Shown: in pieces, positions 41,437-56,688 of the stretch
How the letters are laid out: the number at the start of each line of letters is the position of its first letter
Numbering within the stretch: the stretch's first letter is position 1
Source: Hexactinellida sp. DTS-2022
Taxonomy: Eukaryota > Porifera > Hexactinellida
Reading direction: 5' to 3'
NCBI GenBank assembly: GCA_028753945.1
Contig: JAPNXP010000001.1
Span: 4,020,501 to 4,084,500, forward strand
DNA: 64,000 nt
Made by a program: the position numbers and the translations under genes
Notes under the pieces: generated by a model
Seen by the model: the letters and a program-made list of their open reading frames with translations, nothing else
Databases searched by the model: none
Told to the model about the DNA's origin: nothing

Positions 41437-44401
41437 TTGGGATATTATCACATGACACCACCCCATTCTCTTGACCCGACTTTATCATTACTACCAGACT
41501 TTGTAAGCGATTCACAATTTTCCACTAATCCAAATGGAATTAATTTCATGTACACTAACTGCCGTTCACTCAGCAATAAGTACTTAGAATTTGAGCAGTT
41601 AATAAATGCAGAAAGAATTCATTTTGCCGCCATTACTGAAACTTGGTTCAAGCCGGGTTATGAACTACAATTACATGGATACCACGGCTTTTTCTGCTCA
41701 AGAGAAGACTATAGAGGAGGAGTTGTAGCGCTTTACATAGATGACAAAATGACACTAAAGCACTATCCGATAGAATCTAAATCATTTAACCGTATTAACA
41801 TATTAGTCATCAAGGTGGAATTCATCAAGTCTACCTACATTTGTTTAGTGTATCGACCTCCAAACTCTTCGACCCAAGATACAAAAATTATTGTGCGATT
41901 ACATCAAAACCTTTGAAGGTAAAAATATTATTCTATTGGGTGACTTAAATCTACCCGGGATTGATTGGTCCTCTCACCTAGCTTCTGGTTGCCAAAATCA
42001 ATCGGTTGCATGAATTCTTAAATGCTATTGATGACCTATTCCTCTATCAACATATTATCGAACCTACACGTAAGAAGTTTCAACCTATTTGTGCTTCCTA
42101 TAAAGCCATACTGGATTTAGTATTTACAAATAATCAGTATCAGGTCAGCAAACTAGTATATAGACCTGAGACCTCCTCTCAGTGGATGCGACCACGATGT
42201 TATATTATCTTCTTCAACTACAACACCGCAGTTCCGAAAAGACTAGGAAAAGTGTACCTATACCACAAAATAGATATGTTCCTAGCTGAACAACTTTTCA
42301 AGGACTCGCTACCAGCCTTCACACTTACTCATTCTTTAGATACATTATGGAATAAATTTTTAGATCTATACTCTCGTCTGCTTTCCCTAGTCCCTACTAC
42401 TAATCGGAAAGACGTAAAACCATCATATTTAAGATCAATAACCTTCAAGCTTGCTCTGACAGAGAAATTTTCATGTTGGTCCAAGTATAGAAATAGTCCA
42501 AATCTACACAGTCTATCCGCATATAAGAAAACAAGGGATACAGTATCTAAACTTTCAAAAAAATTGAGACTGGATTATGAAAATCAACTTGTAAACGATT
42601 TTAAATCCCCCTCTTCGGTCCGCAAGTTCTTTAAACATGCCAAACAATACAGAAATTCCAATACTTCTGCTATATCTTTACTTAAAGATTCTGGAAACCT
42701 AACTGTTACTGACTCAGAAACGGCAGATACTTTTATTAAACATTTTGAAACAGTCTATAACAGACCTGTAGCTCGTGGGAATTACCTAAACACTCTTCCT
42801 CGAGTTCTAACATCACTGGACGATGTAATAATCACAGAACAGATACTACTTCAGAAATTGGAACTTTTAGATATTTCTAAATCACCAGGTCCTGATAATA
42901 TACATCCCAGATTATTGAAAATGTTCTCCCATCATTTTTCTATCCTACTAACGATCCTGTTTTCAAAAAGTATCCTAACAGGTGTACTACCTAGTGACTG
43001 GAAGAATGCTTACATAATTCCAATTCATAAAAAACTTTCCAAGCAGCATGCAAAGAATTTCAGGCCCATATCAATCACTTCAGCAATAATAAAGATATTA
43101 GAATCTATCATTAAACCACACATTGTTGACCATCTGATAAAGAATGACATTATCCATCCTGACCAACATGGGTTTGTTCCCGGCAGATCAACTGTGTCTA
43201 ACCTACTAGAAGCCCTGGAAAATTGGACATTATCCCTGGATAACAAGTTAGATGTAGATATTGTCTATATTGACTTCGAAAAGGCCTTTGACAAGGTACA
43301 GCATAGTATTCTCTTGGATAAACTAGATTCTGTAGGCATAAGAGGTAAACTTTTTACCTGGCTTGAATGTTTTCTGATAAACAGGAAACAGAGAGTTAAA
43401 TTACAGGAAACTCTTTCTAAATGGTCTACTTTAACTAGTGGAATTCCACAAGGATCAGTTCTAGGACCCATCCTTTTCTTAATATACACATTTGACATCC
43501 CATCTAAATCTTTCTATAGCAAACCTCAGCTTGATAACAGTGTTTATATTTCTTCCTTTGCTGATGATACCAAGTATTATACTGATGCGCACTTGGATAA
43601 CAACTGCCTTAAACTCGAATCTACATTAAGCTCACTACTGAATTGGTCACAAAGAAATTATATGTCTATCAATATGGATAAATGTAACTTACTTCACCTT
43701 GGTAAAAGACTACACCAAAATTACTCATACTCTATCGACACAATTACTCTTCACCAGACTTCACTAATAAAAGATATGGGTGTATTGATGGATGACAGCT
43801 CACCTTCACAGCGCATATTGCTAAAATATCGCTTGAAGGAAATAGAGCATTGGGTTTAGTTAAGCAGACTTTTGCCTGCATAACGCCAAATATATTTAAA
43901 ATAGTCTATAGATCTCTGATTCGTCCAAAACTTGAATACGCTAGTCAGATCTGGTCACCCTTCCTCATTAAAGATATACAGAAACTAGAAAAAATCCAAC
44001 GGAGAGCCACTAAATGTGTCCAGGGCATGAAACATCTTCCCTACCGTGTTAGACTGGAATTATTCTGGTTGACTTGTCTAGAGATAAGGAAACGTGGCGA
44101 CCTAATTCTTATGTGGAAATACATAAATGGCACATCCGGCATTAAGTTTAGTCAACCGAATCTATTCAATCCTTTAAGCGGTTATCTCCGTGGTAATTCT
44201 TTAACTTTATTAACACCTTCAAACCGGCCGCCTAACACAAGAATAAGGAGTAACTTTTTCACTGAAAGAATTGTGAGTATTTGGAACAAACTACCAAATG
44301 AAATTGTTACAGCTCCGTCTATATCCACATTCAAGGGTAGACTGGACAGTCATTGGGAAGACCCCAAAAAACTTCCCCCGTGCTCCTGTTACAAACCTTA
44401 A
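41437..44401 (+). pseudogene. LINE ORF2: endonuclease plus reverse transcriptase, frameshifted
   Basis: Order of parts: APE-type endonuclease (41437-42000; TNCRSLSNK, ITETWF, CLVYRPPNSS, LLGDLNLPGIDW), a linker, reverse transcriptase (about 42860-43600; SKSPGPDNIHPRLLK, FRPISITSAIIKILE, DIVYIDFEKAFDKV, IPQGSVLGPILF and the catalytic FADDTKYY) and the C-terminal LRPKLEYASQIWS-type segment (43850-44401). Frame breaks fall near 41890, 42005 and 43810; they are single-base changes, one at an A run. The domain order and motifs point to the CR1/L2/Rex-type branch. This copy is not able to make an intact product. Confidence 0.85.
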
Positions 44402-51861: not shown

Positions 51862-52930
51862 TGACCTTCGATTTAAAAGGCCTGAGTGCTAAGCGAAAAT
51901 TTGTGTACCATGGATTACTTAAAGTGCATTGAAAAATGGAGAATTGATCTTTATTCCAATAATTAGCAATGATAGAGCTGAAAAGTGTATTATAACTATA
52001 TAGGAATATGGTATCCAGGTATACATAGCACCCTCCAGAATTGTGATATGTCATCATCTGATGACGTTATGGTAATTTGGTTTCGAATTATCTTGTTTTT
52101 CTAGCATACTTTTAACATAGTTAAACGTGTTATAAATGTTATAAATTGGAACATGGTTATACCCAGAAGTCATAGAATAAAATATATCGAAATTATAAAT
52201 GGAATGTTTAACATTCCTCGGTTGCCATGGAAAATGTATATTTCCTAAAATGTGCCATAACTCAAAAACTATGAATGTTATATAAACTAGGCTGGTACTG
52301 ATCTGTCCGGTATAGTTAACTTCCTATTCATCGATAATACATTTTATATGCTTAACTTCAATAATTTTTGAGATAATGAGATGATTAACACTTAATTCAT
52401 TATTAGGTAATGACTCACTATCTCAAAAATTATTGAAGTTAGGCATATAAAATGTATTATCGATGAATAGAAAGTTAGCTATTCCAGACAGATCAGTACC
52501 AGCCTAGTTTATATAACATTCATAGTTTTTGAGTTATGCACATTTTAGGAAATATACATTTTCCATGGCAACCGAGGAATGTTAAACATTCCATTTATAA
52601 TTTCGATATATTCTATTCTACTACTTCTGGGTATAACCAGGTTCCAATTTATAACATTTATAACGCGTTTAACTATGTTAAAAGTATGCTAGAAAAACAA
52701 GATAATTCGAAACCAAAATTACCATAACGTCATCAGATGATGACATATCACAATTCTGGAGGGTGCTATGCATACCTGGATACCATATTCCTATATAGTT
52801 ATAATACACTTCAGCTCTATCATTGCTAATTATTAGAATAAAGATCAATTCTCCATTTTTCAATGCACTTTAAGTAATCCATGGTTCAAACCAGCACGGC
52901 AGCACTCAGGCCTTTTATATCGGAGGTCAC
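51862..52930. repeat. 1.07-kb near-perfect palindrome (fold-back)
   Basis: Two arms of about 530 bp are inverted around a centre at about 52397. Examples: GGAATGTTTAACATTCCTCG near 52201 and its complement near 52570; AACTTCAATAATTTTTGAGA at 52354 and TCTCAAAAATTATTGAAGTT ending at 52440; GTGACCTTCG at 51862 and GGAGGTCAC at the far end. Mismatches are few. Both sides continue into TCCTACACCAAT words. No open frame in the arms has a recognised family. Confidence 0.85.
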
Positions 52931-53444: not shown

Positions 53445-54078
53445 ATAGTGGCCCAGTTCTAATCTTACTGCCTTTAAATATTATATACTGTGCAGACTAT
53501 ACTATAGTATAGTGGCCCAGTATTGGAATCACTGCCTTTATTATTACTGTGCCGACTATACTATAGTACACTCCCTGGCCAAAAGTATTTGAACAAGAGG
53601 TATTTTAATGCAGACACATTATTCTTTTAGCAGAATGTTGAAAGCTAGTTAATTGTCGCTTCTTAGTAGCTAGGTTATTTCCCTCCATAATAGATTATTA
53701 ATTACAATCTTTTCGTTCAATTTTAGATGAATTCCTTGTATGTCGGCGAGATTTTGCTTATATGTCGGCCAAATCATTATTTGTCGGCGAAATTTGCTTA
53801 TATGTCGGCTAGGCGGGCTAGCCGACATTGTAGGCGGCCGCCATATAAGTAAGCCGATATAATATAAGGAATTTGTTGACTCAACTCAACTAACCGTGGA
53901 TAACATTGCTAAAATATATAACTAATAATATAATCTTTTATCAATTCATAATGAATTAATGGCATTAAACTCAAGATGGTTTATGATAGAAACAAACTTC
54001 ATATTTATCTACCGTTCCTTGTGACTCGGACCAATTAACAAATGGTTCTTGACGCCTTGAGGCGTTGATGACTGGGCG

Positions 54079-54206
54079 AAAAAATAATCCAAAATTGCAG
54101 CCTGTGCCGACAGCATGTTCCTTTGGAGGCACTATCAATAAACAACCAACAAAATATAGTGCCACCAAAGGAACATGCCTCGGCACAGGCTGTAATTTGG
54201 ATTTTT
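54079..54206. repeat. Hairpin MITE family, copy 5
   Basis: Arms AATCCAAAATTGCAGCCTG and CAGGCTGTAATTTGGATTTT; inner ends TTTGGAGGCACTATC and ATAGTGCCACCAAAGGAACA. Before it, at 53740-53870, TATGTCGGC words repeat. At 53571 CACTCCCTGGCCAAAAGTAT looks like one end of a Tc1-type element. Confidence 0.7.
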
Positions 54207-54383: not shown

Positions 54384-54832
54384 TCATTGAAAGATTTTTA
54401 ATACACCATTTATTTTGTATCTACAAATTGGGCAAAGACAAACATGACATCGATCGCCATTCATTTCTTCTTCATCTGCTGAAAGGTCTGAAAAGTAATT
54501 AGAAATATCCAAACTATTTGCTGGTACTGTGGTAATGTCTGAGCAAAAGTTCCCATGGCCAATTGTTAGTGCCATTGCATCAATAAATTCAACTGAACTA
54601 AAGGAGTTATTCAAATATTTTTCTATATATTCGTTTCTTCGAGCTGTTTTGTATTTAGTAATGGCATTAGGTCCTCTGGTTTGGTAGTTTCGTGATTTTC
54701 GAGCAATCGTTGTAGTTCTACACGTATGTCGTAATCTGTCATAATGTTATTCAAAGTTCCCATAAATTTCCGTATGTTAGGATGGGGTGTTTTAAACCAG
54801 AGTGGACCATGGGTCGATGGGTCATGGGTCAT
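54384..54832 (-). pseudogene. Possible MULE-type transposase remnant
   Basis: Two minus-strand frames. The first (from 54832) reads HPNIRKFMGTLNNI and VELQRLLENHETTKPEDLM, like the C-terminal region of animal MULE/FLYWCH-type transposases. The second (54614-54384) is acidic with CHVCLCPICRYKI. They are in different frames with stops between, and the start is cut by the transposon at 54798. Function, if any, unknown. Confidence 0.3.
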
Positions 54833-55227
54833 GGGTCAGATGGGTCACCTAAATCGATGGGTCAGATGGGTCATGGGTCACGGCTCCGTGACCCATGACC
54901 CATTACCAATTTGAAATTTCATTGTCATCTTCAGTTAAAATACTAATCACTCATCATCATCATTATTATTATAACATTGATGTGCATTGAAATACTAAAC
55001 ATCTTCGACATTGCAACAAGTAGGTTTGTTGAGGTAATTTATACGGTTATTCTGTTATACTGTTAATGTTACAGTATAGTCTTTAGATATTTGAAATTGT
55101 GTGATGGGTCAATGGGTCAATGGGTCACTCGATGGGTCATGGGTCAATGGGTCAATGGGTCATGGGTCAGAAATGGGATGGGTCAGATGGGTCATGGGTC
55201 ACCAATGTTGACCCATGGTCCACTCTG
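54798..55227. mobile_element. hAT-type MITE, 430 bp, with GGGTCAT word arrays
   Basis: Exact target duplication TTTTAAAC at 54790-54797 and 55228-55235. Perfect 18-bp inverted ends CAGAGTGGACCATGGGTC. Both ends are arrays of GGGTCAT, GGGTCAA and GATGGGTCA. The middle is AT-rich. No coding. Confidence 0.85.
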
Positions 55228-55345
55228 TTTTAAACTAAGATTTTAGGCATTTATGTTAGGATTCTGCCCCATTGTTAGTTGCTTTTTCATAATAAAAGAC
55301 GGACAAGTTACCCTGAGAAAATTTCTTTATCTAATAATAGTCGCC

Positions 55346-55538: not shown

Positions 55539-55722
55539 TAGTCGCAATACGATTATCAACCGACTATACTAAATAAATTGTATCAACATGTGATATTCTC
55601 GAAAAGTCACAAAATTTATTGGTCAGAAAATGGCCTAAAAAACAATAATCGCCTATTCAAATAAATACGGTATTTATACTAATTACCTAAATTTCATTAA
55701 TCTCAGAATTCATATAAGATAG

Positions 55723-55956
55723 TGTAGTAACGGAGACTACGACGATGGGCAACTGTAGACTAGTAGCGTACATAACCTACTAGTGGGGTTTCGTTCCATT
55801 ACAGGAACTCATCAGGAGGGTGACCCTCGACCCCATGACTCCACTCACGCCTGTGGGTGGTCACGCTTCCTTATTGCCACGGTGTCTCCATCACGACACT
55901 CGTGCCTCCTGCCGGGTGTGTCTCCATAACAACACTATCCCGGCCCCGATACTACA
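55723..55956 (-). mobile_element. GC-rich 234-bp element carrying a hammerhead ribozyme
   Basis: GC-rich island in AT-rich DNA. The ends TGTAGTAACGG (55723-55733) and CCGATACTACA (55946-55956) are inverted at 10 of 11. Besides the ribozyme it holds a perfect 8-bp inverted repeat ACTAGTAG/CTACTAGT (55759-55766 and 55777-55784) right beside the ribozyme, and two 19-bp near-copies of GTGTCTCCATCACGACACT (55882-55900 and 55918-55936, 17 of 19). No clear target duplication, so its class is unknown. Confidence 0.5.
55785..55834 (-). ncRNA. Hammerhead self-cleaving ribozyme
   Basis: Read on the minus strand from 55834: GGGGU then C (predicted cleavage site, between 55829 and 55828), stem I GAGGG-UCA-CCCUC, core CUGAUGA (55815-55809), stem II GUUCC-UGUAAU-GGAAC, core GAA plus A15.1 (55792-55789) and CCCC. 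GGGGU pairs with ACCCC as stem III. All conserved core bases are present (C3 to A9, G12 A13 A14, the A15.1-U16.1 pair and C17), as is the G10.1-C11.1 pair. Stems I and II are closed and stem III is open, so this is a type III arrangement. Similar ribozymes are known in retrozymes, Penelope-like elements and satellite DNAs, where they cut repeat transcripts to unit length. Confidence 0.85.
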
Positions 55957-56068
55957 GATGGAAACAAACTTCCGATTTATCAATTAATCCTTATACCACG
56001 TAACACCTCTACAAATGGGTCATGGCACCTTGAGGTGATGATGACATCGCTAAAAAATGTGTTTTTAC

Positions 56069-56466
56069 CAAGGTTGCAACCGAATAGTTGACCGAATAGT
56101 TGGTTGCCGATTAGCTAAGATTTGGTCGCTTACCGAAACCCAGTATTATTTGTCATTTTGGACCCCATATATATCCATGTCTACAAATACAAGTATTTGC
56201 TTCACCTGATAATGATATTTTGTTGAATATATGTTAGTATTCGGTTGACAAATTGTACTATCGGTCAACCGAATAATACTATTTGGTCTACCGAATACTA
56301 ATATCAGATCAGCAAAATATTATCATCAGGTAAGCCAAATGCTTTTATTTGATGAGCTAAATACATCAGGGTTCATATAAACCCAATAAAACTGAATTTG
56401 GGTATGCAACCGATTCTTAGCTAATCGGCAAGCAACTATTCGGTCATCTATTCGGTTGCAACCTTG
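56069..56466. mobile_element. hAT-type MITE, 398 bp
   Basis: Exact target duplication GTTTTTAC at 56061-56068 and 56467-56474. Inverted ends CAAGGTTGCAACCGAATAG. The interior repeats ACCGAATA and CTATTCGG. It inserted into a longer element whose other parts resemble 18120-18630. Confidence 0.85.
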
Positions 56467-56688
56467 GTTTTTACCATTTTGTGAAGTAGGTATATAATTT
56501 GAATGGGTTGGTTGGTGTTGGGTTATCACCCAACAAGCACTTAAAAAATGTTGAGTCATCACCTATTAAATTATGCTGAAACTTGAATATCTCTCAAATG
56601 AAGTGAGCTAAATGGAAACTTACACCACTCTAAGGGTCGTTGCCTTCTGAAATAATTTAACACCTTCATAGTGATGATGACAATTGGA

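Follow-up and report, generated by a model that had tools for sequence, protein, structure and literature searches.

Genes and repeats in the window

The window, by which we mean the whole 64,000-nucleotide stretch of the glass sponge Hexactinellida sp. DTS-2022 analysed here, encodes a Sec3 protein with 77% identity to that of Oopsacas minuta over 96% of the query, and a MatE protein with 48% identity to that of the same species over 80% of the query. ENA proteins match at 95% (Sec3) and 91% (MatE), and O. minuta is the only named relative listed for either protein. Genes of O. minuta have few introns, 1.59 per gene in the available text of PMC10280926, and the long open frames of the window fit that low count. 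An additional open frame at 42006-43859 contains a reverse transcriptase domain whose closest solved structures are LINE-1 ORF2 and the related enzyme 8c8j.

Repetitive structures of several kinds are also present. Positions 51904-52888 form a nested inverted repeat of nearly 1 kb, a large fold-back element with arms 95 to 97% complementary. At 54791-55234, a cluster of ATGGGTCA repeats lies inside a 25-bp inverted repeat (96% complementary), so that the whole resembles a small transposon enclosing a minisatellite. Positions 56067-56468 form a palindrome of two 186-bp arms (77%), which gave weak matches to microRNA precursors, far below the cut-offs.

A type III hammerhead ribozyme on the minus strand

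A preliminary description of the window had placed a hammerhead ribozyme, complete in all its parts, at 55785-55834 of the minus strand. When the 64-kb window was scanned with cmscan and Rfam 15, the sole match above gathering was RF00008 (Hammerhead_3) at minus-strand positions 55836-55783, with a score of 57.7 bits (gathering cut-off, 48.5 bits), an E value of 3.3e-10, and coverage of model positions 1-54 of 54; the box drawn earlier is this match less 2 nt at each end. The parts of the ribozyme, with the evidence for each, are as follows.

55783 to 55836, minus strand: type III hammerhead ribozyme (RF00008, fold, and covariation in 60 distinct copies)
55830 to 55835, minus strand: stem III 5' strand UGGGGU, partner at 55784-55789 (fold; double changes in alignment columns 3-52 and 4-51)
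55828 to 55829, minus strand: predicted cleavage site, 3' of C17 at 55829 (RF00008 alignment position)
55816 to 55828, minus strand: stem I hairpin GAGGG-UCA-CCCUC (fold, covariation)
55809 to 55815, minus strand: catalytic core CUGAUGA (sequence and RF00008)
55793 to 55808, minus strand: stem II hairpin GUUCC-UGUAAU-GGAAC (RF00008, fold, covariation)
55790 to 55792, minus strand: catalytic core GAA (sequence and RF00008)
55784 to 55789, minus strand: stem III 3' strand ACCCCA (fold, covariation)

The three stems first proposed (GGGGU/ACCCC, GAGGG/CCCUC, and GUUCC/GGAAC) and both core segments, CUGAUGA and GAA, were recovered as described, and stem III reaches one pair further, to six (UGGGGU/ACCCCA). 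The proposed cleavage site, between C17 (55829) and the base that follows it (55828), agrees with the position predicted from the RF00008 alignment. As in type III hammerheads, stem III is open, stems I and II are closed, the core is conserved, and C17 is present; the loop of stem II has the UGNNAU form of the RF00008 consensus. Energy minimisation of the 54-mer alone gave the hammerhead at −21.6 kcal/mol, a value equalled by 6 of 200 shuffles. For the whole 234-nt long terminal repeat (LTR) in which the ribozyme lies, stems I and III are lost at minimum energy, which counts against the interpretation reached below; in the centroid fold, stems I and II survive along with three of the stem III pairs. 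Judged by the covariance model, minus-strand positions 55836-55783 are a type III hammerhead with a predicted cleavage site, and the reading of a complete ribozyme is supported by this match, the fold, and the covariation among genomic copies.

Ribozyme copies are abundant and covary

The genome surveyed comprises 112 Mb in 18 contigs, among which COX1 did not turn up. The ribozyme core pattern CTGATGAGTYYYTGNNATRRRACGAAACC was found in 238 exact copies and in 338 copies with at most one mismatch, compared with none for the reversed pattern. At least 68 RF00008 matches, spread over 13 of the 18 contigs, were obtained; at least 64 score above the cut-off, and 0 of 14 control genomes gave any match to this model. 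These counts argue that the match in the window did not arise by chance, as had been anticipated from the number of bases that it requires. An exact search for the full ribozyme pattern returned nothing from the viral and prokaryote genome collections. For type I hammerheads no match was found in the genome, in a search whose control was silent too and to which no weight is given.

The window and the fetched loci together supplied 113 core hits with up to two mismatches, of which 93 were distinct when the ribozyme was compared along with 60 nt of flank at either end. There were 71 distinct 54-mers, and the 60 with at least four of the five stem I pairs, including that of the window, were aligned. 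Standard pairs occupy 93.6% of the pair cells in this alignment versus 44 to 64% when partners are slid, and two-sided changes occur in 42 cells against a shuffled mean of 14.8. Covariation is clearest at stem II column 33-40 (C-G in 41 copies, U-A in 18) and stem III column 4-51 (U-A in 45, G-C in 5, A-U in 4), and double changes from C-G to U-A are seen in stem II at alignment columns 31-42, 32-41, and 33-40. The core is invariant in the aligned set partly because it was the search pattern; given the stem I filter and the core-fixing patterns, the independent evidence comes mainly from stem III and from the side-to-side match of stem II.

The ribozyme lies within a probable solo LTR

Alignment with related loci placed the hammerhead inside an LTR with TG...CA ends. 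The element and its surroundings are listed below.

55723 to 55956, minus strand: solo LTR, 234 bp, TGTAGTATCGGGG...CCGTTACTACA, terminal inverted repeat of 10 of 11 bases (alignment with loci L089, L076, and L005)
55718 to 55722, no strand assigned: presumed target-site duplication, copy 1, GATAG on the plus and CTATC on the minus strand
55957 to 55961, no strand assigned: presumed target-site duplication, copy 2, GATGG on the plus and CCATC on the minus strand; 4 of 5 bases as in copy 1
53865 to 54104, minus strand: related repeat without the element, junction CTATC at 53985-53989 (flank alignments; unoccupied version of the target site)

The ends, with first bases TGTAGTATCGG and last bases CCGTTACTACA, were set by this alignment. 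No substitution and a single 4-bp indel separate the window LTR from the LTR at L089, from which we conclude that it moved recently; its identity to L076 is 97.0% and to L005 96.6%. The window copy consists of a single LTR without a primer-binding site or purine tract, and its presumed target-site duplication agrees at 4 of 5 bases; both points count against the reading that we prefer, namely, a non-autonomous LTR retrotransposon processed by its own hammerhead (an LTR retrozyme).

A variant compatible with that reading holds that the window copy is a functionless relic. It is a single LTR whose internal part is missing, it is intergenic, and the Sec3 frame runs on the other strand. Set against this is the lack of any substitution relative to L089, by which the window ribozyme is intact and could cut any minus-strand read-through transcript. 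We give the relic even odds.

The repeat at 53865-54104 clearly matches the left flank of both the window element and L090, with 0 of 500 shuffles as good. For the right flank, 0 of 500 shuffles equal the alignment of L090 and 39 of 500 equal that of the window element, a weak result that also counts against an LTR retrozyme. L090 has CTATC on both sides, and together with the element-free repeat carrying CTATC at 53985-53989 this makes a related unoccupied site visible. The window element sits at the same position in another copy of this repeat. The window element and L090 belong to different subfamilies and occupy the same position of an old repeat whose copies are about 72 to 79% alike. As far as flanking sequence can tell, the shared position suggests a target preference.

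Sister loci carry tandem LTRs, a tRNA-Gly primer site, and a purine tract

Among the fetched loci of the window's family, L076 and L090 contain two tandem LTRs, the first of which is truncated at its 5' end in each; the first LTR of L090 runs into an inverted copy. In both loci the first LTR is followed by a T and then by TGGTGCATTGGCCGGGAA, which equals the expected tRNA-Gly(GCC) primer-binding site at 18 of 18 bases, as confirmed with the sponge's own tRNA gene (L092). The 18-of-18 site follows the LTR at L076, L089, L090, and L091; L089 and L091 are palindromic, and one of the two primer sites of L091 adjoins a broken ribozyme. Genome-wide, the combination of CA, any base, and the primer site has seven matches, six of them exact; all six exact matches fall at hammerhead loci, and the reversed control gave none. 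In a search for an autonomous partner that shares this site, the exact 18-base site on its own also gave seven genomic matches, six at hammerhead loci and the seventh at C1:10354292. Near matches comprise the primer site with one mismatch at C6:4406164 and the LTR end plus site with two mismatches at C1:17446167.

The second LTR begins 110 (L076) and 137 (L090) bases past the start of the primer site, and purines occupy 13 of 13 (L076) and 11 of 13 (L090) positions before it. At L035 and L055, which belong to other families, the corresponding counts are 12 of 13 and 11 of 13, versus 6 of 13 and 8 of 13 before the first LTR. Ribozymes in tandem pairs are spaced by 344, 486, and 238 nt, the 344-nt spacing being that of the window's family and the 486-nt spacing that of L035. 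The tRNA-Gly site was found with the window's family alone, a point against the LTR-retrozyme reading. In the TGTGACG family (L035, L080), a hairpin, CATAACATAATAAC..., stands at the junction of LTR and internal part, where no tRNA primer site was recognised; it is possible that this hairpin acts as a self-priming signal.

Target-site duplications flank some motif-defined copies

Ends were defined for this analysis by motif and not by the duplication, since a free-boundary automatic search for TG...CA had produced many spurious ends, and 23 of the 93 distinct copies were scorable. The rule misplaced one 5' end (L035+2419, 346 instead of 325 bp). Exact 4-bp duplications flank 5 of the 23 copies (L026, L027, L028, L031, and L040), against a permutation mean of 0.30, and none of 20,000 permutations reached five; L029 and L030, left out as near-duplicates, have exact duplications as well. 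The other 18 copies are without an exact 4-bp duplication, three of them matching at 3 of 4 bases, and some copies lie inside arrays. These 18 copies count against an LTR retrozyme, as do the flanks of L089, which do not match.

The scored copies measure 233 to 325 bp, and 17 of the 23 have terminal inverted repeats at 6 to 7 of 8 bases. Such small elements, with palindromic copies among them and with a family (L035) in which no primer site was recognised, could be miniature inverted-repeat DNA transposons with TG...CA ends and 4-bp duplications, moved by a transposase and carrying the ribozyme incidentally. That account leaves no place for tandem LTRs around an 18-base tRNA-Gly site and a purine tract, and the ribozyme stays paired through double changes, which points to selection on RNA and argues against a DNA transposon. 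We therefore regard it as improbable.

Palindromic and dimeric copies

Among 100 listed of the 238 exact core sites, 12 pairs of neighbours are no more than 1.2 kb apart, 8 of them direct (spacing, 238 to 653) and 4 convergent, and not every pair represents one element. Palindromic or inverted copies were observed at L066, L035, L090, L089, L080, and L004. L066 is a 494-bp palindrome with CGTA at both outer sides and two LTR starts facing outward; at L018, which is the same place as L066, the arms are 98.4% identical over 508 nt. L035 spans 2,184 bp and holds several LTRs in both orientations, again with two LTR starts outward and with CTAT at the outer sides, while the palindrome of L090 has two LTR ends outward and a CTATC duplication. 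L089 is laid out as LTR, internal part, and inverted LTR, its arms differing by one single-base gap. At L066, L035, and L090 the whole palindrome is bracketed by a single target duplication, which suggests that the DNA was palindromic before integration. Our guess is that such palindromes arise when the first cDNA strand primes itself.

On the minus strand at L073 lies a 475-bp head-to-tail dimer of LTR-like units, with almost no internal part between them and a CTCC duplication. This dimer, like the L1-like reverse transcriptase within the window, would suit tandem-repeat non-LTR retrozymes of the animal kind, mobilised by Penelope-like or LINE enzymes and bearing a type III in place of a type I hammerhead. 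The 4- to 5-bp duplications, TG...CA ends, primer site, and purine tract of the sponge elements all oppose this account, as published animal retrozymes are said in the available text of PMC7229834 to have no LTR, primer-binding site, or purine tract; we consider it very improbable. A chance match or contamination is scarcely credible given 57.7 bits, 238 exact copies against none reversed, RF00008 matches on 13 of 18 contigs, sponge genes in the same window, and the lack of exact matches to the full ribozyme pattern among the viral and prokaryote genomes.

A proposed cycle for the element

We interpret the ribozyme as the processing element of a non-autonomous glass-sponge LTR retrotransposon, an LTR retrozyme, of which the window holds a recent solo LTR, and we assign this reading a probability of about 0.85. 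It draws on the ribozyme, the LTR ends, the primer site and purine tract of sister loci, some of the duplications, and the recent identity, all of which were read from sequence. The presence of hundreds of copies inside the LTRs of mobile elements points to unit-length processing of a retroelement RNA and not to a stand-alone motif.

From these elements we infer cleavage, a circle, priming, and a helper enzyme, arranged as follows. A copy with two tandem LTRs would be transcribed, and the hammerheads of both LTRs would cut the transcript to release one unit composed of one LTR and a short non-coding internal part, 344 nt long in the window's family, judging by the distance between ribozymes. 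Closure of the unit into a circle by a host ligase would follow. Reverse transcription would be primed by tRNA-Gly just past the LTR and second-strand synthesis by the purine tract, with reverse transcriptase and integrase provided by an autonomous LTR retrotransposon, and insertion would generate the 4- to 5-bp target duplication.

The pairing predicted for the circle exceeds that of shuffles at L073 (z = −4.4), L055 (−4.3), and L035 (−6.6 to −7.6), and a 334-nt fragment of L076 gave −3.2; at L010 (−1.0) and L090 (−0.8; −0.83) it is not clearly better. The very low circle score of L063 was not counted, since this locus contains an inverted ribozyme pair. Integrase-core matches, scored across the genome with mobilisation by Ty3-gypsy machinery in view, number 150, many of them in long open frames. 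The genome yielded no autonomous element sharing the ends of the retrozyme, which weighs against the LTR-retrozyme reading. The reverse transcriptase frame of the window (42006-43859), being closest to LINE-1, is not the helper to be expected.

A broader proposal, which we advance tentatively and rate at slightly less than an even chance, is that glass sponges harbour a large, recently active LTR-retrozyme superfamily with classical type III hammerheads that spreads by viroid-sized RNA circles of ~240 to 490 nt together with snap-back palindromic cDNA, its two identical LTR ends facing outward, integrated whole (L035, L066, and L090).

Significance and comparison with known systems

In the available text of PMC7229834 and PMC7761336, retrozymes are divided into a plant kind, with LTRs and type III hammerheads, and an animal kind, without LTRs and with type I hammerheads; the glass sponge would break this division. 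Among the titles and abstract openings listed from open PubMed Central papers, a body that leaves most subscription journals and preprints outside, none dealt with an animal LTR retrozyme or with an animal LTR bearing a type III hammerhead; such elements have so far been described from flowering plants. The finding bears on the descent of viroid-like circles from retrozymes and on movement between kingdoms. If the superfamily reading is true, plant-type LTR retrozymes would occur near the base of the animal tree, whether by common descent or by horizontal transfer. The elements also offer a testable set, with hundreds of copies, at least one substitution-free pair, a primer tRNA, a predicted cleavage site, and a related unoccupied site, and the palindromic insertions offer a hint of the way in which reverse transcription of a circular template might terminate.

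Animal retrozymes, as described in the available parts of PMC7229834 and PMC7761336, are non-LTR elements with type I hammerheads and without a primer site or purine tract. The sponge elements share with them an animal genome, hundreds of copies, a non-coding unit of a few hundred nucleotides, and one hammerhead per unit (Cervera and de la Pena 2020, PMC7229834, available text). They differ in that the animal elements place type I motifs in tandem repeats that have no LTR, primer-binding site, or purine tract and make longer target duplications (same source), whereas the sponge elements have type III motifs with LTR, primer-binding site, and purine tract present. Type III hammerheads occur in animals also as the atypical motifs of HDV-like agents, termites, and dipterans; according to the available text of PMC7936874, these have longer helices I and II and a pseudoknot, and the genomic ones of termites are isolated, whereas the sponge ribozymes are short and classical. 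Mammalian Clec2 genes carry a discontinuous type III motif (PMC6155905, in the text available), and Penelope-like elements and Terminons carry minimal type I motifs and belong to other retroelement classes (cited in the available text of PMC7229834 and PMC7761336).

The closest comparison is with the LTR retrozymes of plants, which, in the available text of PMC4918200 (Cervera, Urbina and de la Pena 2016) and PMC7761336, carry a type III hammerhead in LTRs of 300 to 400 bp, 4-bp duplications, a tRNA-Met site, and a purine tract. As far as the text of PMC4918200 extends, sponge and plant elements have in common a type III hammerhead within an LTR of a few hundred base pairs, 4-bp duplications, a tRNA site immediately downstream of the LTR, a purine tract ahead of the second LTR, an absence of coding capacity, many single LTRs, and a unit RNA predicted from two cleavages. 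By the same source they differ in the size of the LTR (about 234 bp in the window's family, 233 to 325 bp among scored copies, versus about 350 bp in plants), in the length of the unit (344 nt in the window's family to 486 nt at L035, versus 600 to 800 nt), and in the primer, tRNA-Gly versus tRNA-Met; the sponge host, the 5-bp duplication at L090, and the palindromic copies also set the sponge elements apart. The tRNA-Met primer characterises the plant elements and is not something that the mechanism requires. Overall, we propose that the glass-sponge elements represent a known type of mechanism in a new branch of life, with traits of their own in the tRNA-Gly primer, the smaller unit, and the palindromes.
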